DNA of 28,258 nt, from positions 1 through 28,258 of IMG/VR virus record IMGVR_UViG_3300035698_006258. The stretch is one strand, 5' to 3'. Position 1 is the stretch's first letter; each line of letters begins with the position of its first letter. Below, piece after piece: positions 1-26,025 of the stretch. Source of the DNA: a virus. The position numbers were made by a program, and so were the translations under genes. The notes under the pieces were generated by a model. That model worked only from the letters and a program-made list of their open reading frames with translations. It was not told the DNA's origin and made no database searches.

Positions 1-3000
1 TCAAGTAGTTCAGAAGGTTTAAGTTCCTCTAGTAGTTCGTCTAGTTCTACATCTAGTTCATCTTCGTCTAGTTCCTCAAGTAGTTCAGAAGGTTTGAGTT
101 CCTCAAGTAGTTCGGAAGGTTTGAGTTCATCAAGCAGTTCGAGTTCATCGAGTAATTCAAGTAGTTCAAGTAGTTCAAGTAGTTCAAGTAGTTCAAGTAG
201 TTCAAGTAGTTCTTTTAGTTCAAGTAGTTCGAGTATTGACAGTAGCTCATCAAGTTCGTCTAGTAGTATGGCTATTGTTTCTTCTTCGAGTTCAAGTAGC
301 AGTTCAAGTTCGAGTTCTGAGAAATATTCAAGTTCTTCAAGTTCAAGCAGCTCTTCAAGTTCAGAGAAGTATAGTAGCAGTAGTTCAAGCTCTTCTACTT
401 CTTCTTCAAGTTCTTCATCATCCTCATTTGACAACAGGGCAAACTTTGAGATTACAACTACTGGTGCTGACCAAATAGGTATCAGTTATGAGGATGCTGT
501 CAATCTTAGAATCAATTGGGGTGATGGAAACGAGGATATTGTAAGTGGGGCGGGCGAAGCCCTTCATACTTATGCTGGTGCAGGAACTTGGGATTTAAAT
601 ATAAGCGGAGAATGTTCTGTATTTAGATTTAAAACTAACCCCGGCAAGCTTACAGAAATCCTATCACCTATTCAGGGTATTAATGGGCTTACTAGCTTTT
701 ATGAAACATTTAGAGATTGTGTAGGTTTAACTTCAATACCTGACGGACTGTTTGATGAAGTAACTGACGTAACAACTTTCCAAGGATGTTTTCACGTTAG
801 TAATATTACAGCAATCCCCGACAATCTATTTGATTACAATGTTAATGTAATTAGCTTTAAAGAATGCTTCCATACGGCTGTAGTAATAAAATCCATACCT
901 TCAGGCTTGTTTGATAACTGCCCACTTGTAGAAGATTTTGGCTTTTGCTTCCAACAGTGTGTTAATTTAGAATCTATTCCTGCCAATTTATTTGATTTGA
1001 ATACAGCCGCTCTAGATTTTAGATATCTTTTTTATGGTTGCACCGATCCTTTATTAACAACTGTCCCTGCAAATTTGTTCGCTAATAATATTTTAGTAAA
1101 TGATTTTCAAAGATGCTTTTATGGTTGCACAAAGTTAACAACTGTAGGTTCTGGACTGTTTGATAACTGTAGTGACGTAACTACTTTCAGGGACTCATTT
1201 GCCGCTTGCACATCATTAACGGCAATTCCATCAGGCTTGTTTGACGATTGCACATCTGCCGAAGTGTTTTTAAACACTTTCAGTGGTTGCACATCATTAA
1301 CAGCAATACCAAGTGGTTTGTTTGATAATAATGTTAATGTAACTCTTTTTATGAATTGTTTTAAAAATTGCGGAGTTAATTTAGTCGGTCCGTCTAGAGA
1401 ATTATGGATTAGTCATTCAGGCGCTAGTGGAACCGATTGTTATCTTAATGATGTTAACTTGACAGACTATGATAATATTCCTGAAAGTTGGGGTGGTCCA
1501 TTAGTAAGTTCTAGTTCTTCTTCAAGTTCTATAGATAGTAGTAGCTCTTCAAGTTCCTCTAGTAGTTCTGAAAAATATAGTTCAAGCTCAAGTAGTTCAA
1601 GTTCTTCTACATCAAGCTCATCTTCAAGTTCATTAGAGCAGAACAGATATATAAGATATTGTGCAGATGGTTCTCAACACGGACTTCCCTCTAATTCTAT
1701 TGTTTATACTTTAGTGGAAGGGAATATTAAGTATCACTGTTGGACAAGAATGTTTGATGTATCTTCTTCTTCAAGTGAATCTGTTGGAAATACATCTTCA
1801 AGTGAATCTTCTGCATCTAGCTTAAGTTCTGAAAGTAGCAGTTCACAGAGTTCTGATAGTTCTTCTAGTTACATACAATTATGGAGTTCATCTTCTAGTT
1901 CTTCTTCTAGTTTAAGCAGTCCTTCGAGTAGTTCACAGAGTTCTTCTAGTTCTTCTTCTTCAAGTTCAAATTCTTCAAGTTCACAGAGTTCTTCTAGTAA
2001 TTCTTCAAGTTCTAGTTCTTCGAGCAGTTCTTCGAGCAGTTCTGAAGAATACAGTTCTTCTAGTTCTTCCAGTTCTTCTGTTGATAGTTCTTCTTCGAGT
2101 AGTAGTTCACAGTCAAGTCAATCGTCCTCAAGTAGTTCTTCTAGTTCTCTTGAGCATAGTTCTTCAAGTTCTTCAGGTGACAATATTTGCGTAGACGGTA
2201 ACATTACGCCTACTGAAGCAAAAGATACTTATAAGCCATACGGAACACATAATAGCAAAACCAGTTATATACAGGAGAATCCAACAGGACTTTACACTTA
2301 CTATATTTGGTATCAGGACAATGAGGTTTCATGGCCGGTAAATTCTAGAAACAGATGGATTATGTCAAGAGCGGTCGGTTCTAGTATATTGTATCACTGG
2401 TATTCTTTAGCCGATTCCGCAACCGTTTACTTTGGCGAATACTATAATTATGGATGGACAACAGGCACAGCATTTGTTCAAGAAGAGTGTTTCATGTCGA
2501 GTTCTTCAAGCTCTATAGATAGTAGTAGTTCTTCTAGTTCAACTTCTAATAGCTCTTCTTCGAGTAGTAGTTCCGAATTACACAGTTCTTCTTCAAGCAG
2601 TAATTCAAGTTCTTCTCAGTCAAATTCGAGTAGTTCTAATTCAAGTTCTTCTGAAGGAAATAGTTCTTCTTCGAGTAGTAATTCTTCTTCGAGTTATAGT
2701 TCTTCGAGTAGTTCTGAGGGAAACAGCAGTAGTTCTTCTTCTAGTTCTAGTTCATCTAGCTCTGAAGATTATAGTTCAAGCAGTTCTTCGAGTTCTGAAT
2801 TACACAGTTCTTCTAGTTCTACATCGCAAAGTTCATTAAGTTCTGAATCTGTTGGAAATGTAAGTTCTTCAAGCAGTTCTTCGAGTAGTTCTTATTCAAG
2901 TTCTTCTAGTTCAAGTCTATTTGAGATAGATTATGATGCGGTTTGCACAGCTGATTGCCCACCTTCTCCTAACGATGTTCAAGGCGAATATGTAAGAATA

Positions 3001-3990
3001 GGTGAAGCGTATGGTTATTCTCTATATTCTGGTCCTGATGGCAACGATACATATAGGTTGTTCAGAGTTGCAAATGACCAAGCGATTGTAGATACGGCTG
3101 GATTTATTAGTGGCGCTCCTACATACAGATGGTTGAAAACTAATGATAATGATTTTGAAGGTGACTATCTTCCTGACTTAGGTGTAACGGGAACAATTAC
3201 AATAGGACCATGGTTACAGAAATCAAGCTCTAGTTCTTCTTCGAGCAGTTCCAGTAGTTCTTCTTCTGTAGATAGTTCAAGTAGTTCTTCGAGTAGTAGT
3301 TCAAGTTCATTCGCCAATAGTTCTTCAAGTTCTTCTGGTGACAATCTTTACCTTTGCGGTGATGGACTTACACCTTCTGCAACAGTTGGAACATATGCTG
3401 ATGATGGATTACATTCATTAATGCCATCTTATAAACACATATCTGAAACATATTACCTTTGGTTCTTAGATTCAGGTATTGGCAATGGTTTCTGGATGTG
3501 TTCTGCTCAAAAGGGTGTTTACGCACCCGGCTATTTTAATCGTCCTCATGGAACAAAGATAGGCTCTAGTCCAATAGGTGATGACTGGACAGCAAATAAC
3601 GGTTGGGTTGGGTATCCTTCGGTTGAAGATTCTCCTTGTAACCATAGTTCTAGTTCTTCTAGTTCTAGTTCATTAGATTCATCTTCAAGCAGTAACTCTA
3701 GCTCTTCTCAGTCAAGTTCGAGTAGCTCTTCAAGTTCAGAATTATATAGCAGTTCTTCAAGCAGTTCTTCTAGTTCATCTTCAAGCAGTTCTTCTAGTTC
3801 ATCTTCTAGCAGTTCTGAAGAATACAGTTCGAGTAGCTCTTCGAGTTCTTCATCAAGCTCATCTGAAGAATACAGTTCGAGTAGCTCTTCAAGCTCTTCC
3901 TCAAGCAGTTCAGATTTAGGTGCAAAGGTTATTGAAGAAGATGGAACACCAATATTAACAGAAGCGGGAGCGTATTTAACAGTAGAATAA
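1..3990 (+). CDS. Giant modular poly-serine tail/fibre protein (5' partial)
   Basis: The frame is open from base 1 and no credible start is visible, so the N-terminus lies outside the window; 1329 residues remain. Long poly-Ser tracts, punctuated by short recurring motifs (EKY, ELH, EGN, EEY, IDS), separate folded blocks. Block 1 (bases about 427-1503) starts with a PKD-like stretch (INWGDGNEDI) and continues as BspA-type leucine-rich repeats of the form F-x-x-C-x-x-L-x-x-IP-x-GLFD. Block 2 (about 1630-1764) is short and Cys-containing. Blocks 3-5 (about 2176-2493, 2917-3222, 3337-3645) are roughly 100-residue Trp/Tyr-rich domains; blocks 3 and 5 share YY[IL]W[YF] followed by W-x-[MC]. The C-terminus reads KVIEEDGTPILTEAGAYLTVE-like, a short Glu/Leu module. 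The gene next to it is a beta-helix fibre. I infer a surface or receptor-interaction structural protein; the exact position in the virion is unknown. Confidence 0.8.
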   Translation, partial: SSSSEGLSSSSSSSSSTSSSSSSSSSSSSEGLSSSSSSEGLSSSSSSSSSSNSSSSSSSSSSSSSSSSSSSFSSSSSSIDSSSSSSSSSMAIVSSSSSSSSSSSSSEKYSSSSSSSSSSSSEKYSSSSSSSSTSSSSSSSSSFDNRANFEITTTGADQIGISYEDAVNLRINWGDGNEDIVSGAGEALHTYAGAGTWDLNISGECSVFRFKTNPGKLTEILSPIQGINGLTSFYETFRDCVGLTSIPDGLFDEVTDVTTFQGCFHVSNITAIPDNLFDYNVNVISFKECFHTAVVIKSIPSGLFDNCPLVEDFGFCFQQCVNLESIPANLFDLNTAALDFRYLFYGCTDPLLTTVPANLFANNILVNDFQRCFYGCTKLTTVGSGLFDNCSDVTTFRDSFAACTSLTAIPSGLFDDCTSAEVFLNTFSGCTSLTAIPSGLFDNNVNVTLFMNCFKNCGVNLVGPSRELWISHSGASGTDCYLNDVNLTDYDNIPESWGGPLVSSSSSSSSIDSSSSSSSSSSSEKYSSSSSSSSSSTSSSSSSSLEQNRYIRYCADGSQHGLPSNSIVYTLVEGNIKYHCWTRMFDVSSSSSESVGNTSSSESSASSLSSESSSSQSSDSSSSYIQLWSSSSSSSSSLSSPSSSSQSSSSSSSSSSNSSSSQSSSSNSSSSSSSSSSSSSSEEYSSSSSSSSSVDSSSSSSSSQSSQSSSSSSSSSLEHSSSSSSGDNICVDGNITPTEAKDTYKPYGTHNSKTSYIQENPTGLYTYYIWYQDNEVSWPVNSRNRWIMSRAVGSSILYHWYSLADSATVYFGEYYNYGWTTGTAFVQEECFMSSSSSSIDSSSSSSSTSNSSSSSSSSELHSSSSSSNSSSSQSNSSSSNSSSSEGNSSSSSSNSSSSYSSSSSSEGNSSSSSSSSSSSSSEDYSSSSSSSSELHSSSSSTSQSSLSSESVGNVSSSSSSSSSSYSSSSSSSLFEIDYDAVCTADCPPSPNDVQGEYVRIGEAYGYSLYSGPDGNDTYRLFRVANDQAIVDTAGFISGAPTYRWLKTNDNDFEGDYLPDLGVTGTITIGPWLQKSSSSSSSSSSSSSSSVDSSSSSSSSSSSSFANSSSSSSGDNLYLCGDGLTPSATVGTYADDGLHSLMPSYKHISETYYLWFLDSGIGNGFWMCSAQKGVYAPGYFNRPHGTKIGSSPIGDDWTANNGWVGYPSVEDSPCNHSSSSSSSSSLDSSSSSNSSSSQSSSSSSSSSELYSSSSSSSSSSSSSSSSSSSSSSSEEYSSSSSSSSSSSSSEEYSSSSSSSSSSSSSDLGAKVIEEDGTPILTEAGAYLTVE
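163..212 (+). repeat. 9-bp tandem repeat in poly-Ser coding sequence
   Basis: Five perfect head-to-tail copies of AGTTCAAGT (163-207) plus a partial sixth lie inside the poly-serine frame, each encoding Ser-Ser-Ser. The unit length is a multiple of three, so copy-number change would lengthen or shorten the linker without a frameshift. The rest of the poly-Ser sequence uses mixed AGY and TCN codons and is less regular. Confidence 0.85.
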
Positions 3991-6291: not shown

Positions 6292-6486
6292 ATGGAGTAT
6301 CTCAGACATTACGAAACTAAGATATGGGACGAGTGGCTTCTAAAAAGGAAGGAAGATGTTCAATACAAAGTAATTGAAGATTTGAAACATCTTCAATCCT
6401 TACAAAATGGAGTAACTGAAAGGAATGGAGAAAAAAGAGATAAGATACAAGTTAGACCCTCAAGAAATATCAATCCAAAATATTAA
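6292..6486 (+). CDS. Small helical protein of unknown function
   Basis: 64 residues, ATG start with AAGGGAG about 7 bases upstream. The protein is charged and predicted helical in its first 45 residues (YETKIWDEWLLKRKEDVQY), then basic. It overlaps the following sigma-factor gene by 62 bases in a different frame, so the two are probably translationally coupled. A TATAAT box at 6266-6271 lies just upstream, but I see no convincing -35 element. Not recognised as a known family; a partner or modulator of the sigma factor would fit the coupling but is unproven. Confidence 0.55.
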   Translation: MEYLRHYETKIWDEWLLKRKEDVQYKVIEDLKHLQSLQNGVTERNGEKRDKIQVRPSRNINPKY

Positions 6487-7114
6487 AGAATACATATCCA
6501 CTAAAATTAAGCTATCATACGAAGAGCAATTGTGGATATTCCGTAAGCACCCAACGAGAAGAACTGACGATGACACCAAAAAACTCATTGATTCTAATCT
6601 GGCGATGGTATTCAAGTTAGCTTCTGTGTTTCATTTGAAACACAGAAGTATGTCAAACAACAACAAGAATTCCACTGACGTAGATTTTATGGATTTGTTT
6701 CAAGCTGGCGTTGTGGGATTGAATAGAGCTATTGTAAAATTCGATTCAACACTCAAAATGAAATTCTCAACTTATGCCTATCACTGGATATCCGTCCACA
6801 TAAGTAGGGAAATAAAGGGAACAGTCTATCCACTCAAAACCCAACAGTATGCTGCCATAAATGTAGTGCCAATGGATGATACGCCACATTCCACATCAAC
6901 CTATGACGACATGTATGGGAAAATTGAATATAACGAAATTGTTGAATATGCTAAACAGAATTTGAGTTTTCTTGATTTTACTATTTTTAAGCTATATTTC
7001 ATTGACGAACATCCCGTTAAGTATATTGTCCCCGCCGTTAGAAGGAATGAATTTGTCATACGCAATCATTTACGAAAGATACGGGGGATAATAGGGGAAG
7101 AATATGCCCTGTAG
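6425..7114 (+). CDS. Phage-encoded sigma-70-family RNA polymerase sigma factor
   Basis: 229 residues. Residues about 52-130 form a recognisable sigma region 2: KKLIDSNLAMVFKLA (2.1), DFMDLFQAGVVGLNRAIVKFD (2.2) and FSTYAYHWI followed by SREI (2.3/2.4). The C-terminal 45 residues (LDFTIFKLYFIDEHPVKYIV, then RNEFVIRNHLRKIRG) look like a degenerate region 4 helix-turn-helix. Regions 1 and 3 are reduced, as in small alternative sigma factors. It should bind host core RNA polymerase and redirect it to phage promoters. It lies at the end of the late operon, just before a terminator-like hairpin, so it may be made late or carried over. The ATG at 6425 is preceded by TGGAGT at about 11 bases. Confidence 0.85.
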   Translation: MEKKEIRYKLDPQEISIQNIKEYISTKIKLSYEEQLWIFRKHPTRRTDDDTKKLIDSNLAMVFKLASVFHLKHRSMSNNNKNSTDVDFMDLFQAGVVGLNRAIVKFDSTLKMKFSTYAYHWISVHISREIKGTVYPLKTQQYAAINVVPMDDTPHSTSTYDDMYGKIEYNEIVEYAKQNLSFLDFTIFKLYFIDEHPVKYIVPAVRRNEFVIRNHLRKIRGIIGEEYAL

Positions 7115-8602: not shown

Positions 8603-8769
8603 GCTTCTCATTCTTAAGAAAATAATTCACAACTTCTAAAATCTAAGAATAAAAATCCCGACCAATGACACATAAACATAGAAAATCAAAGTGAATGTTC
8701 GATAGGGATAGTTGGCATGGTAAACGCTATATAAAGGGTATGAACGCAAACAAAATAGGAGAAGATAAA

Positions 8770-9042
8770 ATGAGCGTTGAAGTAACAAAAATAGTAAAGC
8801 ATTATGGCGACGATAATGAACTACACAGAAAAGGAGGGAGCGCTTTACAAGAGTATGTGAATGATATCTTGTCTAAAGAGGAGTGGTATACACACGGAAG
8901 GCTCTGTAAACGAAAAATTTACAATGGCGAAGGAAAGCTACGGCATATGTCGATACACTTTAAAGAACGTAGGAACGATACGGGACTTGATGCCCAAGGA
9001 TACATGGTTTACACATACTACAAATCAAAGTCTTTCAAATAA
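8770..9042 (+). CDS. MORN-like repeat protein, divergent
   Basis: 90 residues from the third in-frame ATG, chosen because AGGAGA lies 7 bases upstream; an ATG at 8695 would add 25 residues without a ribosome site. Two degenerate copies of the cluster motif are visible, DNELHRKGGSALQ and EWYTHGRL, with the rest basic and aromatic (GYMVYTYYKSKSFK). Compared with its two downstream relatives the HR-x-DGPA core is worn (HRKGGSA). Function unknown; membership of the cluster is inferred from the motif and adjacency. Confidence 0.55.
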   Translation: MSVEVTKIVKHYGDDNELHRKGGSALQEYVNDILSKEEWYTHGRLCKRKIYNGEGKLRHMSIHFKERRNDTGLDAQGYMVYTYYKSKSFK

Positions 9043-9052
9043 GGAGAATCTA

Positions 9053-9265
9053 ATGGATACCAACGCAAACAAAAAATGGTTCAAAGATGGATTACGACAC
9101 AGAGATGGTGGATACCCTGCATGCATATATGGTAACGGCGATAAATATTGGTATGTAGATGGACTGTTACATAGAGAAGATGGTCCAGCTATTGAACTTG
9201 ATAACGGTTATAAAGAATGGCGTTTGAATGGCGTTCTTCAAAAGGCAACAAAGGGAGATGAGTAA
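9053..9265 (+). CDS. MORN-like W-x-x-DG-x-x-HR-x-DGPA repeat protein
   Basis: 70 residues, ATG with AAGGAGA about 6 bases upstream, 10 bases after the previous stop. Three repeat units are visible: KKWFKDGLRHRDGGYPA, KYWYVDGLLHREDGPAIE and KEWRLNGVLQ. The pattern resembles MORN-2-type repeats seen in many small phage and bacterial proteins, usually forming beta-hairpins. No catalytic residues are evident, so a binding or scaffold role is more likely than enzymatic. Larger annotated spans of this frame that start at 8861 would run through the previous gene and are not supported. Confidence 0.65.
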   Translation: MDTNANKKWFKDGLRHRDGGYPACIYGNGDKYWYVDGLLHREDGPAIELDNGYKEWRLNGVLQKATKGDE

Positions 9266-9266
9266 G

Positions 9267-9410
9267 ATGAGCGATACAGGAACATCACTAATAACTACAT
9301 GGTTGTTTTGGATTAGTATGTTATTGATATGGAATAGTTACATACTAGAAAAGAAACTTGATAAGATTATAGAAAACACTACACCAACCCAAATAACACA
9401 GGAGAAGTAG
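9267..9410 (+). CDS. Small single-pass membrane protein
   Basis: 47 residues. The ATG at 9267 is chosen because AAGGGAG lies about 9 bases upstream; the ATG at 9258 is too close to that site. Residues about 8-24 form a transmembrane helix (ITTWLFWISMLLIWNSYIL), followed by a short charged amphipathic tail (EKKLDKIIEN). The start is directly behind the preceding stop, so it is co-translated with the MORN-like gene. Not recognised; small membrane proteins in early phage regions can be superinfection-exclusion or lysis-control factors, but nothing here decides that. Confidence 0.6.
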   Translation: MSDTGTSLITTWLFWISMLLIWNSYILEKKLDKIIENTTPTQITQEK

Positions 9411-9411
9411 A

Positions 9412-9501
9412 ATGTATATTAGCGAACAGGCTGTGGGTTTTATTATGCACAGGTTAAACAGATGTTCGATTACTACACTGTGTCAGAAGCGTTGGGGCTA
9501 G
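9412..9501 (+). CDS. Putative 29-residue peptide
   Basis: An ATG with GGAGAAG about 5 bases upstream opens a frame that begins MYISEQAVGFIMHRLN and ends in a tag stop ten bases before the next gene start. The peptide is short and partly basic. It has a proper ribosome site and fits between genes without overlap, which is why it is listed; it could also be a leader that couples translation to the next gene. No family recognised. Confidence 0.35.
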   Translation: MYISEQAVGFIMHRLNRCSITTLCQKRWG

Positions 9502-9511
9502 AGGAGGATGT

Positions 9512-10144
9512 ATGTTAAGCGTGTTAGAATATATTAAGGGTAGATTTAGGTATTGGTTTAAGATGAATGGGTGTAGGATATTATCTAACGGAACTAGAAA
9601 ATGGTATTTTAACGGCAACGCACACAGAGAAGATGGACCGGCTAAAGAATTTATAGATGGCGCAAAAGAATGGTATATAAATGGACAATTACATAGATTA
9701 GATGGCCCGGCCAGAATACAATCGTCCGGCGTCATAGAATGGTGGATAAGTGACAGATCATTTGAATCACAAGAAGGACACAGACAAGAGATGCAACGTA
9801 GGCGACGAACTGATTCACCAAACTTCGATACAAGTAATCTATGGACGAGTGAAGTAGACCATAGTGAACTAACGGGTTTAGACTTTAGAGATAGTGATCC
9901 CAGATATTTATCCAATCCACGCCAGCCTAATAGAAGCCGAAATGACGAATATGGTGATACAATACAAACAAGAGAATTCACATTTGCGTGTAATCATTGC
10001 GGTAGAGCTACAGTAGTTACAGTTCCTAATATCCCACCACCTAATTGCAAAGTATCAGACGGGCATATAGAAGAGATGAAAGAATTAAACAAAGAGTTAC
10101 CACCATATAACGCTGACAATAGTATAGCTGAGCTAGAGTTGTAA
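9512..10144 (+). CDS. MORN-like repeat protein with C-terminal zinc-binding motif
   Basis: 210 residues with GAGGAGG just upstream of the ATG. Residues about 28-85 hold three repeats of the cluster motif: RKWYFNGNAHREDGPAKE, KEWYINGQLHRLDGPARI and IEWWISD. The middle (about 90-150) is Ser/Asp/Arg-rich and likely disordered. Near residues 160-185 a Cys cluster, CNHCGRATVVTVPNIPPPNC, could bind one zinc. The final residues NSIAELEL resemble the C-terminus NSIDELEL of the unrelated small protein at 13755-14009. The zinc knuckle may allow nucleic-acid or protein binding. Function unknown. Confidence 0.65.
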   Translation: MLSVLEYIKGRFRYWFKMNGCRILSNGTRKWYFNGNAHREDGPAKEFIDGAKEWYINGQLHRLDGPARIQSSGVIEWWISDRSFESQEGHRQEMQRRRRTDSPNFDTSNLWTSEVDHSELTGLDFRDSDPRYLSNPRQPNRSRNDEYGDTIQTREFTFACNHCGRATVVTVPNIPPPNCKVSDGHIEEMKELNKELPPYNADNSIAELEL

Positions 10145-10162
10145 AATAAATAAAGAAAACAC

Positions 10163-10191
10163 TTGACAGTTAAGTAACTATGTGCTATGAT
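10163..10191 (+). promoter_or_regulatory. Consensus sigma-70 promoter with ideal spacing
   Basis: TTGACA (10163-10168) and TATGAT (10186-10191) are separated by exactly 17 bases. The predicted start point, about 7 bases after the -10 box, coincides with the ATG at 10198. It sits in the gap after the zinc-finger MORN-like gene and probably drives the second half of the accessory operon. Confidence 0.8.
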
Positions 10192-10197
10192 AGGTGT

Positions 10198-10383
10198 ATG
10201 AAGATTAAGAAACAATTGAATATAAGTTGTCCCAAATGCGGAGAAGATTTGAGCGAATGTTTTATAACCTCCGTTGCGGCACAGATTTGGAGAAGGAAGT
10301 CTAAAGGCAGAACGTTATCACCTGAAGATGCAAGAGCTATGCAAGAGAAGAGTGCAGAATCTAGGCGTAAAAATAAGGAGTAG
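10198..10383 (+). CDS. Small zinc-finger-like protein, probably leaderless
   Basis: 61 residues, MKIKKQLNISCPKCGEDLSE at the N-terminus with a CPKC pair and a further Cys; the C-terminal half is Lys/Arg-rich and helical (SPEDARAMQEKSAESRRKNK). One zinc-ribbon-like half-site plus a basic tail suggests a DNA- or RNA-binding accessory protein. The ATG falls where the strong promoter should begin its transcript, and no ribosome site precedes it, so translation may be from a leaderless mRNA. An upstream ATG at 10180 lies within the promoter and would be untranscribed. Confidence 0.6.
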   Translation: MKIKKQLNISCPKCGEDLSECFITSVAAQIWRRKSKGRTLSPEDARAMQEKSAESRRKNKE

Positions 10384-10580
10384 AAATATTGCGTTGTATA
10401 TGTTATCCTTAGCAACAACGTTATGACGAAGTGGGAACGACATGTGTTATATTCATGTCGGAGGAAAAGCGTCATATGCCGTAATGGATGGCAATTAATC
10501 AGAAGGAGTGATAAAGTTTGAATTCAGCAATCAAACCAATTTTTATACTTGGACTACAAATCAAACTGTTCGCTTAAAAT
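10384..10580 (+). other. 197-base gap with two small hairpins
   Basis: CGACATG (10438-10444) pairs with CATGTCG (10454-10460) around a 9-base loop, and CGTTGT (10392-10397) can pair with ACAACG (10415-10420). An AAGGAG ribosome site near 10503 precedes a TTG-started 19-codon frame (10518-10577). I do not see a credible protein here; an untranslated leader or small RNA is possible. Confidence 0.4.
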
Positions 10581-10721
10581 ATGGATACTATAGCAAAACT
10601 TAAAAAACACAAAAAAGAGTTGGAAGCTCTTATTGTAACAGATACACCAAAAAGATATAATAGGATGACACTGTGGCAAATAGAACGTTTAGAATCAATC
10701 ATCAAAGAAATGGAGAAATAA
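10581..10721 (+). CDS. Short helical protein of unknown function
   Basis: 46 residues, ATG start, no clear ribosome site. The sequence is one long charged helix in two parts (IAKLKKHKKELEALIV and MTLWQIERLESIIKEMEK), consistent with a helical hairpin or coiled coil. The gene ends two bases before the GTG of the next gene, whose ribosome site (GGAG) lies in its last codons, so the two are probably coupled. Not recognised. Confidence 0.5.
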   Translation: MDTIAKLKKHKKELEALIVTDTPKRYNRMTLWQIERLESIIKEMEK

Positions 10722-10722
10722 A

Positions 10723-11046
10723 GTGCATTTAGAATTACTAAAAACCAAAGATAACTGCTACAAGATAATTAGTCAGCATAACGGTCGGCATCCTGCATTG
10801 AAACACCTTGCTACTCTGTTGTCTGAAAGTAATAAGTTCGCAGATGTAAAGATTGGAATCTATAGTATTCCACCTAATTCATTTCAGGCTTTTAAGAGTG
10901 TATATTCATATATTTCAAACAGAGTTGAGAAAATGGGAAAAGTTAAGTTTTATAAATTTATCAAAGGACAGAAACAATTAGCTCCACAGAAGAAGGTTGA
11001 GTGGAATTCTGCTGATGATGAGTTGAAGGATTTGTTCGAAGAATAA
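10723..11046 (+). CDS. Hypothetical protein
   Basis: 107 residues starting at GTG, with GGAG about 7 bases upstream. Mixed alpha/beta character: an N-terminal region with DNCYKIISQHNGRHPALKHL, a helix with FQAFKSVYSYISNRVEKMG, and an acidic end (NSADDELKDLFEE). The acidic C-terminal tail resembles protein-interaction tails of phage recombination or replication accessory proteins, but there is no motif to confirm this. It directly precedes an HNH nuclease with one base between stop and start, so the pair may act together. Confidence 0.55.
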   Translation: MHLELLKTKDNCYKIISQHNGRHPALKHLATLLSESNKFADVKIGIYSIPPNSFQAFKSVYSYISNRVEKMGKVKFYKFIKGQKQLAPQKKVEWNSADDELKDLFEE

Positions 11047-14423: not shown

Positions 14424-14975
14424 TTAAAGTACTTCGAAGAGGGTAAAATCATTGTCGCCTTCTGATACTTCTGCCTTGGCGTTATCAGCGGTTGTGTCAT
14501 CTAGCCATCCTTCTTCATTGATTCCTTTTACCCATGGCTCAATGTTTTTAGCTGATGCTTTATTGGGGAATTTGAATTCATAGTCTAATGAACCATTTTT
14601 GTATTTTTTTAGAGATGTCCATACAATTTGATTGAATACTGTTTTGATTATGTCTCCTGTTATTTCCACTCCAGAATCTTTGACAATCTTGAGCAATCTA
14701 AGGCGACATTCTCTGATATTGTCTTGCATGATGTCAGTGCCGTAGATGGTTTGGAGTGCTTTTATGGGGGCGTGACCTAGAGAGATTTTCCGTTTGAGAA
14801 CTTCAATGAGCATATTCCCATTACCGCAAGCAGGGTCAAGGAACGTCTTACCCTCTTCAAATGCCTCTGGACCGTATTGTGAGAGCTTGTCGAGCATTTC
14901 ATTGACAAGGGAGGCGGGGGTAAAGTCTTCGGCTGTGGTCTTTTTTCTCTTTAGGCGTTTGTCGTTATTGCACAT
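14424..14975 (-). CDS. DNA adenine methyltransferase, SAM-binding (motif I) subunit
   Basis: 183 residues from ATG 14975 (GGTGAT upstream); a GTG at 14984 would add three. The Eco57I/N6-adenine MTase motif I is clear, TFLDPACGNGNMLIEVL, with an upstream helix (EDFTPASLVNEMLDKL) and the following acidic-loop stretch TIYGTDIMQDNIRECRLRLL that holds the ribose of S-adenosylmethionine in the family. There is no NPPY catalytic motif in this protein; the C-terminal part (LDYEFKFPNKASAKNIEPWV) is family-typical then becomes acidic. The catalytic motif is on the gene transcribed just before it, with about 10 bases of overlap. The two proteins should combine into one active enzyme that methylates adenine, protecting phage DNA from restriction. 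Confidence 0.8.
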   Translation of the reverse strand: MCNNDKRLKRKKTTAEDFTPASLVNEMLDKLSQYGPEAFEEGKTFLDPACGNGNMLIEVLKRKISLGHAPIKALQTIYGTDIMQDNIRECRLRLLKIVKDSGVEITGDIIKTVFNQIVWTSLKKYKNGSLDYEFKFPNKASAKNIEPWVKGINEEGWLDDTTADNAKAEVSEGDNDFTLFEVL

Positions 14976-16176
14976 GGCTATCACCGGTTATCGCTTCAAT
15001 ATAATCAATTTCTTTATTTGTTAGTTTAAAATATTGATAAAGTTTTTTATCGTTCCAATTTTTAGATATATCAATTTTAGGTATGTGTTTTATTACCTGA
15101 GTATTAAGAACACCATGATGAGTACGTTGTTGAGCAATTAAAAACTGAATAGGTTTTGATTTGATATAAGATAATATTTTCAATGCTTCCATTTTATTTT
15201 TTACAAGATAAAAAACGCCTCTGTTTGCAGGAGCACTGGTAGGAGCATAAATAGGATAATTTTGAGTAGTTTGATTAGGAAAGATTAATTTTGGTTTTAA
15301 TTGATATGCATGAGGTTTATCCGACCATTTCTCTGTTCCCATTGAATATCTAACGCTATAAATTTGATGTTTTGTTTTGACGTTAGATATATTTCCAATA
15401 GTACCGCTCGAGGACAAGTAACTAAACATTTCTCTGTCAAGCATTTTTCGTAATATATTCATTGTTGTCAAGTTAAAATCTTTAGGGATAAAAGTAATAT
15501 CACTTAACTTTGTTTCAAATTTATCGCTAGTAGTAACAATAGAGCATTTCTTGTGTTGATTTTGTTTGTCAAGTAAATAATAAGAAAAAGATGAGCCAAT
15601 ATTGGGAAAATACTTTGAGCATTCATCAATATTAACGTCTCTTGCATATTTTTTAATCAAATTAAAAACCTTACTAGAATTATTTTCTTTTGTAACTTGA
15701 TTCCCCCATGTTTTTGGTGTAATCATAATAACATAACGAGCAGAAATGCTAAACGATTTATGAACAAAATCAGCCCAAAGATTAGTAAAAGAACTATCAT
15801 CGTTTGCTTTCTGATAAGGTGGATTTCCAATGACTACATCGAATTTCATTTCCATATCCTCTTTCAAAAACGTTCCCATTTCTTTGAGAACAACATTAAC
15901 ATCATTATACCGATCAGTCAAACAAAATTTCACCTTTTCTTTGCAGTCAGTAACAAACCATATCTTCTTCAATTCAATACCGAAATCATAACATAGTATC
16001 TCAGCAAATTCAAGGTTAAAGATGCAGTAGAAAAAGCAAGAAAAAGTAGAAAGGCTAAAGAAATTGCAGAAAAGGAAAGAAAAGAAAATCAAAATGTTCA
16101 AAGTAATGTTCAAAGTGCGGAACCTGATAAATAGACAATAGAGGACAATAGAGGACAATAGGTAAAAATATAACAT
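14965..16176 (-). CDS. DNA adenine methyltransferase, catalytic NPPY and target-recognition subunit
   Basis: 403 residues if started at 16176 (AGGAGG two bases before). The catalytic motif IV is MKFDVVIGNPPYQ; a helix with RYVIMITPKTWG follows, and the C-terminal 200 residues resemble an Eco57I-type target-recognition region. Residues about 57-110 (FNLEFAEILCYDFGIELKKI, IWFVTDCKEK) look like genuine protein. The first 56 residues are hydrophobic and low-complexity and are antisense to a Lys/Glu-rich plus-strand reading, so they are probably not native. Other starts are 15879, 15855 or 15849 (AGAGG 8 bases upstream of the last). Transcribed before the motif I gene, giving order IV-TRD-I, a permuted arrangement. 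The role is host-restriction evasion, inferred. Confidence 0.75.
   Translation of the reverse strand: MLYFYLLSSIVLYCLFIRFRTLNITLNILIFFSFLFCNFFSLSTFSCFFYCIFNLEFAEILCYDFGIELKKIWFVTDCKEKVKFCLTDRYNDVNVVLKEMGTFLKEDMEMKFDVVIGNPPYQKANDDSSFTNLWADFVHKSFSISARYVIMITPKTWGNQVTKENNSSKVFNLIKKYARDVNIDECSKYFPNIGSSFSYYLLDKQNQHKKCSIVTTSDKFETKLSDITFIPKDFNLTTMNILRKMLDREMFSYLSSSGTIGNISNVKTKHQIYSVRYSMGTEKWSDKPHAYQLKPKLIFPNQTTQNYPIYAPTSAPANRGVFYLVKNKMEALKILSYIKSKPIQFLIAQQRTHHGVLNTQVIKHIPKIDISKNWNDKKLYQYFKLTNKEIDYIEAITGDSHVQ
15997..16134 (+). pseudogene. Orphan C-terminal fragment of a plus-strand gene
   Basis: Plus-strand reading gives KFKVKDAVEKARKSRKAKE, continuing Lys/Glu-rich and ending NVQSNVQSAEPDK before a stop at 16132. 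It has no in-frame ATG, GTG or TTG start and is closed upstream by a stop at 15994. The composition is that of a normal phage helical C-terminus, whereas the antisense reading is an implausible hydrophobic run. I read it as the 3' remnant of a gene whose 5' part was displaced when the methyltransferase genes arrived, or as a rearrangement junction at about 16000-16030. Confidence 0.5.
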
Positions 16177-21824: not shown

Positions 21825-22002
21825 GATGGATTGTTATAATCACCCTGAACGATATGAAGATGATGAAGATGGTGATTCAAGTATGGGTTCGGATGCTGAG
21901 GTAGAAGAAGAGTTATGGATACAGATTCGGAAGGCTATAATGGATTATGTTAATTTTAAAGTAGCAATAAAAGAAGGAGATAAGTATGAAAAAGGTAGTT
22001 AA
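21814..22002 (+). CDS. Small acidic protein between portal and protease
   Basis: 62 residues; ATG 21814 has AGAGG about 9 bases upstream, whereas ATG 21805 is too close to it. Strongly acidic in the middle (YEDDEDGDSSMGSDAEVEEE), then a helix with LWIQIRKAIMDYVNFKVAIK. It overlaps the portal end by 11 bases and the protease start by 17 bases, indicating coupled translation. A head-assembly accessory role is suggested by position only. Confidence 0.55.
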   Translation: MKNKMDCYNHPERYEDDEDGDSSMGSDAEVEEELWIQIRKAIMDYVNFKVAIKEGDKYEKGS

Positions 22003-23041
22003 ATTAAGTAATATATTGAACAAATTAGATGACGGTTATGCTAATGAACTAAAACAGGCGGTTAAATCCGAGAATCTTGATATAGACGATTTAGAGGTCT
22101 ATCGTAAGGATTATGCCGTAGAAACAAAAGCTAGTTTAGAAGAGGGTTCTAGAACTGTTATTAAATACGTTTCTACAAGAACAGTTGACCAAGTTGGTGA
22201 TGTTGTTATGCCTAAAGGACTTTCTTTTAAGCAGTTCAAGAAAACTGGAATGCCTGTATTTTATAATCATAATTACTCTATGCCACAAATTGGTAGGGAC
22301 GAATGGGTAAAAGCCGACGAGTATGGTGTAAAAGTAAAGATGAAATATGCCGACTTAGGTGAAGGAACTTTAGCTGATATCCTTTGGAAACTAACTTCTC
22401 AAGATATGAATAAACAGAGTTCGATAGGGTTAATTCCTTTAGAGGTCATTAGAGAAACGGATGACGAATTCAAAAGTGCGGTTAGAACATTGGCAAAAGA
22501 ATGGCCGGAGTTCAGAGCTACACAGAAGGCTTGTAGGCGAATTATAACAAAGGCTATCTGTTTCGAACATTCTGATTGCTCAATGGCGTGTAACACAGAT
22601 ACGGACGTTATAGCTGTTTCAAAGGCTTTTCAAGAGGCTGGTGCTGATGAGAAGATACTTAAACAGTTGGGTATGCCTATTCCTGTAACGGATGCGGATT
22701 TGTCGTATACTGTTGACGCCGAAGAGGTTGTAGTTGTTGAAACCAAGGAAGCAGAGCATAATGACCTTGATTTTGGTGAAGATGCTGATACCGAAGAGGT
22801 CGTAGAAGCTGTAGAAGCTGTAGAGGAAGTTAAAGAAGAGGAAGTTAAGGTAGAAGAGGTAGAAGAGGTAGAAGCAGTTGTAGAGGAAGAGGTTATAGAG
22901 GAAAAGGTAGAGAAAAAGAAGGTGACGATGGTTAAACAGCCTCGTATTGTTAAGTTAATTCAAGGACCATCTGTTTCAAAGGAGGAGTTTAACGATATGG
23001 TTCAAAAGGAATTAAGAAGGAAGATGGGAAGATTATTGTAA
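21986..23041 (+). CDS. Prohead protease (S78-like) fused to an acidic scaffold-like tail
   Basis: 351 residues, ATG with AAGGAG 7 bases upstream. Residues about 40-200 show the HK97-type prohead protease pattern: STRTVDQVGDVVMPKGL, VFYNHNYSMPQIGR with the probable catalytic His 95, and NKQSSIGLIPLEV with the nucleophile Ser 145 or 146, about 50 residues later as in HK97. Residues about 235-310 are a long Glu/Val-rich acidic region (EEVVEAVEAVEEVKEEEVKV), followed by a basic helix (VSKEEFNDMVQKELRRKMG). This resembles a scaffolding domain with a capsid-binding end, so one polypeptide may both scaffold and mature the head. No separate scaffold gene is seen. Confidence 0.85.
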   Translation: MKKVVKLSNILNKLDDGYANELKQAVKSENLDIDDLEVYRKDYAVETKASLEEGSRTVIKYVSTRTVDQVGDVVMPKGLSFKQFKKTGMPVFYNHNYSMPQIGRDEWVKADEYGVKVKMKYADLGEGTLADILWKLTSQDMNKQSSIGLIPLEVIRETDDEFKSAVRTLAKEWPEFRATQKACRRIITKAICFEHSDCSMACNTDTDVIAVSKAFQEAGADEKILKQLGMPIPVTDADLSYTVDAEEVVVVETKEAEHNDLDFGEDADTEEVVEAVEAVEEVKEEEVKVEEVEEVEAVVEEEVIEEKVEKKKVTMVKQPRIVKLIQGPSVSKEEFNDMVQKELRRKMGRLL

Positions 23042-23172: not shown

Positions 23173-24423
23173 ATGAAGTTTATTAAGTTAATTAAGAAAT
23201 ATATGGACGAAGATGACGCTGTTTATGAAGTCGGCTCCGTTCTTGAAGTTAGTGATGATGTTGCAGATGAGCTTATTAAAGGTGAAAGAGCCGAAGCGCA
23301 TTCTGGTATCGTTACTGAAGTAAAGGCTGAAGATGTAGTTGGTGCAGTTCAAAAGGCAGTAGCAGAAGCAATGGAAACTAAAGCAGTTGAAACAAAGGCT
23401 GTTGAAGTTGAAGTTATTGAAGATGCTCCTCTTTGGAAGGATAGTTCTGAGTTTATTGATGCCGTTATGAAAGCTGGTACGGGACAATCTCCTGATGAAA
23501 GGCTTTATAAATCCACAGGTCAGAACGAAACGACTGACGCTGATGGTGGCTTCCTTGTCGAACACAGAATTGGTAATGAAATCTATGCGGCTGCTGCTCA
23601 AGCCTCTATTCTGTTGCCTAAATGCGACGTAATGGAGATTGGTCCTAACGCTAACGGAATGAAGATAAATCAGTCTAACGAATCCGAAAGAAGTGCAACA
23701 ACTTTGTTCGGAGGAGTAAGAGTGTATAGTCCTGCCGAGGGGGTGGCGAAAACAGTTTTTAAGAAAGCCTTCGCCCAGGTAGACATCAGTTTGGGTAAAA
23801 CTTTCGCAGTTTTTGCCGCTACTGATGAACTGTTGTCTGATAGAGTTGGCTTGCTTTCTCGTATGAAAAGTGAAGTTGGAGCTGCGCTGGCATGGATTGC
23901 AGATGACGATATTCTACACGGAACAACTAATACCGACATGATTGAGATTGAAGGTCATGCCGCTACGGTGGCTGTTGCAGTTGCTGGGGCAAATCCTACA
24001 GCCGCAGAGCTGACCAATATGTATACGGCTATGCTTCCTGGCTCATTGCCTAGAGCTGAGTGGTATATGTCCTTAAGTCAGTATGCCGCTTGTATGCAGT
24101 TGGAAGATGCATCTGGTAGAAAATTGATTCAGCCTTCGTTCGAGCTTGCTGCCTACGGCACTTTGTTCAACAAGAAAATCAATATTCTTGAACAGTGCGA
24201 TGTTGATGCTCAACCTACGAGCATATGCTTTCTTGACTTGAGCCAGTATCTTGTCATTAAGCGTGGCGGAATTTCTGAAGCCTCGTCTATCCATGTTAAG
24301 TTTTTGGAAGATGAGCAACTTTTCAGATTCGGAACACGCACAGGCGGGTCGCCTAAGTTGGCTTCTACCATTACATTGCCTGATACAAGCATTGTAAGTC
24401 CGTTTGTTACAAGAGCTGTATAA
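23173..24423 (+). CDS. Major capsid protein-like, first of two (HK97 fold)
   Basis: 416 residues, ATG with TGAGGA 7 bases upstream. Residues 1-110 form a helical, acidic leader (EVGSVLEVSDDVADELIKGE, then AVQKAVAEAMETKAVETKAV) resembling an N-terminal delta/scaffold segment. The HK97 core follows: STGQNETTDADGGFLVEH, ANGMKINQS, FKKAFAQVDISLGKTFAVFA, ALAWIADDDILHG, then LDLSQYLVIKRGG and LEDEQLFRFGTRTGG near the end. It shares STGQNE, SQY[LV] and the [LV]EDE region with the next gene, so the two are paralogues. It lacks the poly-serine extension found there. It could be the main shell subunit or a partner with a distinct lattice position. Confidence 0.85.
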   Translation: MKFIKLIKKYMDEDDAVYEVGSVLEVSDDVADELIKGERAEAHSGIVTEVKAEDVVGAVQKAVAEAMETKAVETKAVEVEVIEDAPLWKDSSEFIDAVMKAGTGQSPDERLYKSTGQNETTDADGGFLVEHRIGNEIYAAAAQASILLPKCDVMEIGPNANGMKINQSNESERSATTLFGGVRVYSPAEGVAKTVFKKAFAQVDISLGKTFAVFAATDELLSDRVGLLSRMKSEVGAALAWIADDDILHGTTNTDMIEIEGHAATVAVAVAGANPTAAELTNMYTAMLPGSLPRAEWYMSLSQYAACMQLEDASGRKLIQPSFELAAYGTLFNKKINILEQCDVDAQPTSICFLDLSQYLVIKRGGISEASSIHVKFLEDEQLFRFGTRTGGSPKLASTITLPDTSIVSPFVTRAV

Positions 24424-24436
24424 ATAGTTAGATTTG

Positions 24437-24468
24437 AGGGATGGTCGGAGATAAAACCGACCATCCCT
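24437..24468 (+). terminator. Strong hairpin between the two capsid genes
   Basis: A 12-base perfect stem, AGGGATGGTCGG and CCGACCATCCCT, with an 8-base loop, 14 bases after the first capsid gene. Only three T residues (two beyond the paired one) follow, so it may be a partial terminator or an mRNA-stabilising hairpin that sets the ratio of the two capsid proteins. Confidence 0.6.
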
Positions 24469-24512
24469 TTCATCGCTTGCCCACTACTGGGTTAAACGAA
24501 GGAGATGAGAAG

Positions 24513-25970
24513 ATGAAGAAAGATAAGAGAATAGAGCTTGGCAAGGCGCTTCAAAAAATTGTCAAATCCACAGGACAGAACGAGGCAGTAGCCCTAGAAG
24601 GCGGAAACCTTGTCAATCATAATATCATACCTGAAATTCTTTCACCTAACTTTATGGCTGGAACGCTATATGAAAGGTGTAAGATTTTTAACGTCGGTGA
24701 TAATACCTCTGGGATTAAATTGCCTATCGCTGATGAAGCAACCCGTAATACTTCTGGTATCAAGGGTGGAGTTCTTGCATATGTCGTAGGCGAAGGCGAT
24801 GCTAAAACCCCTTCTGATGCTAAATTCAGTATTCTTGATTTAGGTTTTAATAAGATAGCTGTTGTTATTCCTTTAACTGATGAGATTAAGCAGGATTCAG
24901 AATTGCTTGTTCAGTATGTAAGTGATGCGGCTAAAGAAGCTATTCAATGGATGGTTGACAGAAACATTATTTATGGTAATGCTCTTAATGGAATTGTTGC
25001 AAGTGCCGCTACTGGTGATTCTGCAATCTCCTCACCTATAACTGCCGCTGAATTGAAAGATATCTATGATATGTATTATGGTGGTAAAGAGGGTGTATGG
25101 GTAATGGGACAGGATTTATGGGTTGAAGTTGGTGATCTATGGAATTCTATTGCAACTCAGGCTCCTGGCATTCCACTTACATTTGAGGGTGGAGATGCAT
25201 ACCTTTGGGGACATAAGGTAATAGTTTCTGATGTAGTTACTGATAGGCAAATCATGATTGGCGATTTTAGTCAATATGTGATTGTTCAGAAAGAGATTAC
25301 AGAAGCTATTAATGAATCGCTTAAGTTTGTTGAGGACGAAAGTTATCTTAGATTTGTTCTTCGAATTAATGGTGATGTCACTTGGGTTTCAGGTTTAACT
25401 ACTACGGATGGTTCAAAGGTTTATCCTTTTGTTGTTAATACTGCGGCTGAAGGTAGTTCTTCTAGTTCTAGTTCGTCTAGTTCTGTTGATTCTAGTTCTT
25501 CTAGTTCTCAATCAAATAGTTCGAATAGTTCTTCAAGCCAGTCAACGTCATCTAGTTCATCTAGTTCTGTTGATTCTAGTTCTTCTGAAAGTTCTGAAGA
25601 TACTGCAAGCACCACTAGTTCTTCTAGTTCATTGGAAGGATGTTGCGCTACTTATGCAGGAACAGCCTTTACTACGACTGCCTTGAATGGTGATTGGGCT
25701 TATGATGGCGACTATCCTCCAGTTCCTCCGGCAGCTACTGGATATCCAAGTTATGTTAATCAGACTGGGACTTACTACTTATGGTATGAGTCTGTTACGG
25801 GCTATTGGGCTATGAGTGCCGATAAGGGTGATCCTCAAGTATCTTGGGTGTCTACTACGGATACGCAAGTTTCATGTCCTGATGGGGATGTATGGGTTAA
25901 CGAGTCTGGAATCATTACTTGCACTGAAATGAGTTCAAGTTCGAGTTCTGAATCGACTGTCGGTCAATAA
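24513..25970 (+). CDS. Major capsid protein-like, second of two, with poly-Ser tether and display domain
   Basis: 485 residues. Start 24513 has AAGGAG 8 bases upstream; an in-frame ATG at 24441 lies within the hairpin. Residues 1-310 are an HK97-fold core: STGQNEAVALEGGNLVNH, SGIKLPIADE, DLGFNKIAVVIPLTDE, AIQWMVDRNIIYGNA, YLWGHKVIVSDVV, GDFSQYVIVQKE and FVEDESYLRFVLR. Residues about 315-375 are poly-Ser with VD, QS and SES interruptions. Residues about 376-470 form a domain beginning GCCATYAG with YYLWYESVTGYWAMSADKG, of the type repeated in the poly-Ser tail protein. A final short Ser tract ends it. The tethered domain should project from the capsid surface, perhaps for adhesion. Confidence 0.85.
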   Translation: MKKDKRIELGKALQKIVKSTGQNEAVALEGGNLVNHNIIPEILSPNFMAGTLYERCKIFNVGDNTSGIKLPIADEATRNTSGIKGGVLAYVVGEGDAKTPSDAKFSILDLGFNKIAVVIPLTDEIKQDSELLVQYVSDAAKEAIQWMVDRNIIYGNALNGIVASAATGDSAISSPITAAELKDIYDMYYGGKEGVWVMGQDLWVEVGDLWNSIATQAPGIPLTFEGGDAYLWGHKVIVSDVVTDRQIMIGDFSQYVIVQKEITEAINESLKFVEDESYLRFVLRINGDVTWVSGLTTTDGSKVYPFVVNTAAEGSSSSSSSSSSVDSSSSSSQSNSSNSSSSQSTSSSSSSSVDSSSSESSEDTASTTSSSSSLEGCCATYAGTAFTTTALNGDWAYDGDYPPVPPAATGYPSYVNQTGTYYLWYESVTGYWAMSADKGDPQVSWVSTTDTQVSCPDGDVWVNESGIITCTEMSSSSSSESTVGQ

Positions 25971-25979
25971 GAATTAAAG

Positions 25980-26011
25980 TGAGTGGGTTGGGTTTAATCC
26001 TGACCCACTCA
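25980..26011 (+). terminator. Hairpin after the second capsid gene
   Basis: TGAGTGGGT pairs with ACCCACTCA, extended inward by two G-U and two G-C pairs to a 6-base loop. It begins 10 bases after the capsid stop and ends 15 bases before the next start. No U-tract follows, so it may stabilise the upstream mRNA rather than stop transcription fully. Confidence 0.5.
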
Positions 26012-26025
26012 TAAATGGAGGCTAT

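Follow-up and report, generated by a model that had tools for sequence, protein, structure and literature searches.

Most well-studied tailed phages build the hexamers and pentamers of their head from one capsid protein, T4 being the textbook exception. The DNA analysed here, a 28,258-base virus fragment from IMG/VR (the window), carries two capsid genes in tandem, referred to here as MCP1 and MCP2, which raises the question of whether two such proteins divide the work of one head between them, and how.

Two capsid genes in a head gene cluster

The right-hand end of the window is a head gene cluster (Table 1), in which the terminase, portal, protease, capsid and connector genes by which HK97-fold tailed phages are recognised were all found. 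Both MCP1 (2.3e-28, 99.8 bits) and MCP2 (3.6e-23, 82.8 bits) matched PF05065 (Phage_capsid) above its curated cut-off of 24.2 bits, and both matched the PHROG major head protein. Aligned with each other by BLASTP, they shared 98 of 309 residues (32%, E=1e-34). The original prediction of two tandem, paralogous genes of the HK97 fold at this place was thereby confirmed, with a correction to the second gene: the ATG at 24441 of its reading frame sits within a hairpin and the extension from there is absent in relatives, so that the start was placed, as the probable one, at 24513, eight bases after AAGGAG. The shared motifs named in that prediction, STGQNE, SQY and [FL][LV]EDE..[LF]RF, were each recovered in both proteins, SQY occurring twice in MCP1.

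Upstream of the pair, the head maturation protease was assigned with moderate confidence, since its match is weak but its position is the expected one; relatives, too, have the gene directly before the pair. Its product (21986-23041) has a long acidic, Glu-rich C-terminal half and is possibly a protease-scaffold fusion existing alongside the MCP1 leader.

Table 1. Features of the window discussed in the text; a slash marks a predicted cut
Feature	Position	Strand	Evidence
Ser-rich protein, 1329 residues, 5′ end cut by contig edge	1..3990	+	repeats, module-like domains between Ser runs
Small terminase			window head cluster; weak PHROG match
Large terminase			window head cluster; Terminase_6 match
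Portal			window head cluster; 6.7e-50
Head maturation protease, probably with acidic scaffold-like C-terminal half	21986..23041	+	PHROG 9.2e-5, residues 48-88
MCP1, HK97-fold major capsid protein, ~113-residue N-terminal delta-domain-like leader, without Ser arm	23173..24423	+	PF05065
MCP1 K113/STGQNE, predicted maturation cleavage site	23509..23529	+	structural register to HK97; inference
Terminator-like hairpin after MCP1, 11-13 bp, weak T tract	24438..24467	+	dG -25.5; equivalent in 13/13 genomes
Small hairpin GCCC-ACTACT-GGGT upstream of MCP2 ribosome site	24479..24492	+	stem letters vary, pairing kept
Shine-Dalgarno AAGGAG of MCP2	24499..24504	+	read in sequence
MCP2, HK97-fold capsid paralog, short leader, Ser-rich C-terminal arm	24513..25970	+	PF05065
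MCP2 K18/STGQNE, predicted maturation cleavage site	24564..24584	+	structural register to HK97; inference
Ser-rich arm of MCP2	25440..25640	+	sequence; pLDDT <50 at residues 314-376
Terminal display module of MCP2 (putative), ~97 aa, cysteine-containing	25641..25931	+	profile E 2e-47
Terminator-like hairpin after MCP2	25979..26012	+	dG -23.2; counterparts in L003, L005, L006, L013, L019
Head-tail adaptor, head-closure-like protein, HK97-gp10-like neck protein			after MCP2 in cluster order

AlphaFold2 models made from family alignments reached a mean pLDDT of 76.5 for MCP1 and 68.7 for MCP2, the latter lowered by its disordered arm, and both resembled HK97-type capsids. Against HK97 and its relatives they gave Z scores of about 15-19 over roughly 205-258 residues (MCP1, 18.8 to the GTA capsid and 16.9 to HK97 prohead I; MCP2 residues 46-311, 18.0 to the cf-PICI capsid and 17.9 to the GTA capsid), with similar scores coming from many HK97-fold chains, and such a common fold says nothing on position in the shell. 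Divergence of the A domain, at the capsomer centre, was considered as a signature of pentamers; this domain was the least similar one in MCP2, but it was likewise so in comparisons of MCP1 with single capsid proteins, and domain-by-domain divergence gave no pentamer signature in the MCP2 sequence.

The models also provided a structural register to HK97, in which residue 128 of MCP1 corresponds to HK97 residue 119 and residue 37 of MCP2 to HK97 residue 122. The HK97 cut between K103 and S104 then falls at K113-S114 of MCP1, or at most one residue from it, and at K18-S19 of MCP2. As STGQNE lies at the position of the HK97 cut, MCP1 and MCP2 probably share it as their maturation site, each mature chain then beginning with this motif. 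Chain lengths show that HK97 loses 103 residues in this way (282 of 385 remain), while the mature arm of D3 starts at residue 114 (PMC12749128). With regard to scaffold removal of the HK97 subtype, MCP1 has both a leader and the aligned lysine-serine site, and cleavage is a prediction for both proteins. A leader had been claimed for the first gene only. The long leader is indeed specific to MCP1, but MCP2 has a short one of 18 residues, MKKDKRIELGKALQKIVK, before the same motif.

Elsewhere in the window, two overlapping minus-strand ORFs at 14424-16176 carry motifs like those of DNA methyltransferases (NPPY in one, DPACGNGN in the other) and are candidates for a split or permuted adenine methylase, or for a frameshift. 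A phage-encoded RNA polymerase sigma factor was found at 6425-7114 (PHROG 351, 2e-17), a possible late-gene regulator, and neighbouring ORFs at 8695-10144 contain HREDGPA...W(Y/R)(I/L)NG repeats like those of MORN/YwqK-type repeat proteins.

Descent of the pair and signals around MCP2

The tandem pair was identified in the window and in 12 non-redundant viral contigs (L003, L004, L005, L006, L009, L011, L013, L019, L024, L042 with its near-copies, L044 and L052), and the gene order was always the same. Contigs L007, L008, L010, L020 and L023 stop in or just past MCP1, and a single capsid gene was seen in the available stretch of L012, L025-L033, L045, L047-L050 and Streptomyces phage Dagobah. 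A maximum-likelihood tree built from 40 cores separated MCP1s, MCP2s and single capsid proteins into three groups, each bounded by a branch present in 100% of the bootstrap trees examined (starred in the tree); the exact position of L024 is unsure owing to its long branches. Because the three groups are clean, the simplest history would be one old duplication before the whole paired lineage, followed by joint inheritance as a pair.

A search of genome contigs for bacterial hosts or prophages returned none. With the MCP2 profile, the only match in bacterial genomes was one of 25% at a Bradyrhizobium locus, where a second capsid gene was not recognised by eye. Among phage isolates the only match was a partial one (33.6%) to Streptomyces phage Dagobah, which has one capsid gene. 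A description of this tandem pair was not found in the literature searched, which included few subscription papers.

The two proteins differ in the same manner throughout the family. Ahead of the N-arm motif, MCP1s have 104-123 residues and MCP2s 14-37. In nine close genomes the mean identity was 67% for MCP1 vs 53% for MCP2, with MCP1 higher in 34 of the 36 pairs of genomes, and no other head protein in the comparison was as conserved as MCP1. The division of labour between the paralogs that had been proposed from the window is supported by this, since the asymmetry of leader and arm is conserved across the family. Coevolution of MCP1 and MCP2 was also considered. A strong signal over 12 genomes (N-arm, E-loop and LEDE strand) was gone in the nine close genomes, where no segment fell below p=0.05; the signal thus reflects deep clade structure, and direct contact between MCP1 and MCP2 is not supported by it.

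The spacer between the two genes, and the region after the second, contain several hairpins. The terminator-like hairpin after MCP1 is a strong one, with a dG of about -20 to -29 across the nine genomes in which it was measured singly; the T tract behind it is good in L004, L005, L006, L024 and L042 and weak in the window, L009, L011 and L013. No comparable hairpin was detected ahead of MCP1, and the one after MCP2 was present in most genomes tested. In T7 a terminator follows the capsid gene. A promoter and terminator scan gave nothing above shuffled sequences, its rule calling for more T residues than the hairpin of the window offers.

The small hairpin, located downstream of the first one and ahead of the MCP2 ribosome site, in most cases has a 4-bp stem and an A-rich loop. 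Its stems read GCCC/GGGC, AGCC/GGCT, AACC/GGTT, CGCC/GGCG or GTCC/GGAC across the genomes, with pairing kept as the letters differ; in the alignment used, MAFFT shifts the element by about one base in some rows. In its strict pattern it was found at MCP2 and at none of about 120 other gene starts, a descriptive result as the pattern was derived from the same sequences. Rfam gave no gathering-level match, and a hit to PtaRNA1 (E 0.29, other strand) was judged to be chance. We consider this small hairpin a candidate regulatory RNA element, and, as far as sequence can tell, the hairpins likely mean a lower or separately controlled output of MCP2.

The serine-rich arm and its terminal module

A poly-Ser C-terminal arm had been attributed to the second gene only. 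Its restriction held throughout the family, as a Ser-rich arm was found in 12 of the 13 MCP2s (it is absent in L044) and in none of the 13 MCP1s. The description as poly-Ser was incomplete, since the arm of the window leads into a module that is followed by a second short Ser tail. Such a module, of roughly 80-97 residues, ends the arm in seven MCP2s (window, L006, L009, L011, L013, L019 and L052), while the arms of L003, L004, L005, L024 and L042 lack it; both arm length and module content vary strongly among relatives. The module matched no Pfam family at cut-off.

Related modules on Ser tethers were identified in other proteins. In the window, the Ser-rich protein at the left-hand edge (1-3987) matched the module profile at 5.9e-5 for the best domain and 5.8e-6 for the whole protein, and it is probably a tail or surface fibre; its repeat block matches PHROG 9915 (2.1e-51) and looks BspA-like by eye. 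The head-completion protein of L042 (Phage_HCP, 1.1e-8) continues, past a Ser run, into a module of weak similarity (domain E 1.4). A Ser-rich protein of L011 with a related module starts like a head-completion protein, at an E of 0.018 that is below cut-off. Two contigs with P22-type coat proteins, L067 (5.4e-19) and L070 (8.1e-23), encode the module on a Ser tether in a gene of its own that lies between those for portal and coat. The small Ser-tethered proteins concerned (L067 2407-3378 and L070 2302-3147) are homologous, with N-terminal parts 36% identical, and are candidates for a new head decoration family. In L052, two adjacent, similar connector-like genes with Ser-rich C termini (9024-9488 and 9488-10738) make up a second tandem duplication with tethers.

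These sequences are good circumstantial evidence for a cassette that is mounted on virions as a decoration and passes from protein to protein and from phage to phage; its presence on a head-region protein of the P22-coat phages, which are unrelated, fits display on virions. Bacterial carbohydrases have polyserine linkers between their functional domains (PMC2386152), and by analogy a role at surfaces or in glycan binding is suggested for the module, and no more than suggested.

Roles of MCP1 and MCP2 and their known counterparts

The reading that we prefer, to which we give about an even chance of being right, is that MCP1 forms the main lattice and MCP2 is a minor, display-bearing subunit of the same particle, most likely located at the vertices as gp24 is in T4. 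An HK97-type capsid gene would have been duplicated in tandem long ago, yielding two specialised shell proteins. MCP1 would have kept the long N-terminal scaffold (delta) domain, evolved slowly and come to form most of the lattice as hexamers, while MCP2, with its short leader, would most likely fill the 5-fold vertices. This placement is the least secure step of the model. The disordered Ser-rich arm, in many members with its small end module, would be shown outside the head. One phage protease would probably trim both proteins at their common site of the K/STGQNE type, the hairpin after MCP1 and that before the MCP2 ribosome site would probably hold MCP2 below MCP1, and packaging would proceed as in HK97.

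Another arrangement, the blended lattice of the original prediction and rather unlikely in our judgement, is that MCP1 and MCP2 are mixed within hexamers, so that the MCP2 content sets the number of Ser arms on the head. Neither A-domain divergence nor coevolution told this arrangement apart from the preferred one. Both proteins have complete HK97 folds with common N-arm, E-loop and P-domain motifs, and the two-component encapsulins set a precedent within this fold (PMC12407261). The encapsulin partners, however, are highly similar, whereas MCP1 and MCP2 are far less alike and form separate groups family-wide, and MCP2 is without the long scaffold domain; the asymmetry in leaders, common site, rate of MCP1 evolution and hairpin is fitted at least as well by gp23 and gp24 of T4.

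It is also conceivable, and we think clearly unlikely, that MCP2 is chiefly a display subunit whose position (vertex, portal surround or elsewhere) is secondary, the pair being kept to limit the number of arms. The strong differences in arms between relatives speak for this, as does the occurrence of the tether with a module-like domain on the head-completion protein of L042, the connector-like protein of L011 and the head-region proteins of the P22-coat phages. On the other hand, the armless pair of L044 is a counterpoint to any role based on the arm, and with the five relatives whose arms have no module it means that module display cannot be the sole reason for the pair. That the two proteins build alternative shells, of different sizes or stages, rather than one mixed particle is very improbable: a hairpin after each gene could uncouple their expression, but the cluster has one portal, one protease and one terminase, order and tight linkage are the same in all relatives, and MCP2 lacks its own long scaffold domain.

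The family may also represent an undescribed lineage of tailed phages in which a minor HK97-fold paralog serves as a built-in display site, dosed by terminator-like and 5′ UTR hairpins and carrying an exchangeable Ser-tethered module, with the same cassette moving among capsid, neck and tail proteins and unrelated phages. We put this forward tentatively, as a proposal somewhat more likely wrong than right. A conserved pair in a compact HK97-type lineage would offer a second, simpler system for asking why a phage splits the capsid job; the free C terminus of MCP2 would show how ornaments are put on a shell in controlled numbers, and the moving Ser-tether cassette helps in recognising display proteins when uncultured phages are annotated.

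Among known systems, T4 is the closest in layout. Its protease cuts 65 residues off gp23, which forms the hexamers, and 10 off gp24 at the vertices; gp24, ~20% identical to gp23, is probably the product of a duplication (PMC9958956). Both phages have two HK97-fold paralogs, with a long leader on the main protein and a short one on the second. The leaders of MCP1 and MCP2 precede a common site, and the trimming of both by one protease, known in T4, is predicted here. The comparison with T4 covers fold and layout, and the vertex position, known for gp24, is predicted for MCP2. Unlike T4, the pair here lies within a compact HK97-type head cluster with the scaffold-like domain inside MCP1, and PMC9958956 describes no Ser-rich display arm on gp24. 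HK97 gp5 and the D3 capsid protein share the architecture and fold of MCP1 and the upstream protease, but in each a single protein makes all capsomers. Family 2B two-component encapsulins also have two HK97-fold shell proteins encoded together (PMC12407261); they are, however, cellular compartments of highly similar partners, without a phage protease or Ser-tethered module. Ser runs between functional modules are found in Saccharophagus carbohydrases (PMC2386152), and Hoc shows domains on the T4 head (PMC9958956), whereas the tether here is the C terminus of the capsid subunit itself. Split HK97-fold capsids are already known, and what is unusual here is the display arm.
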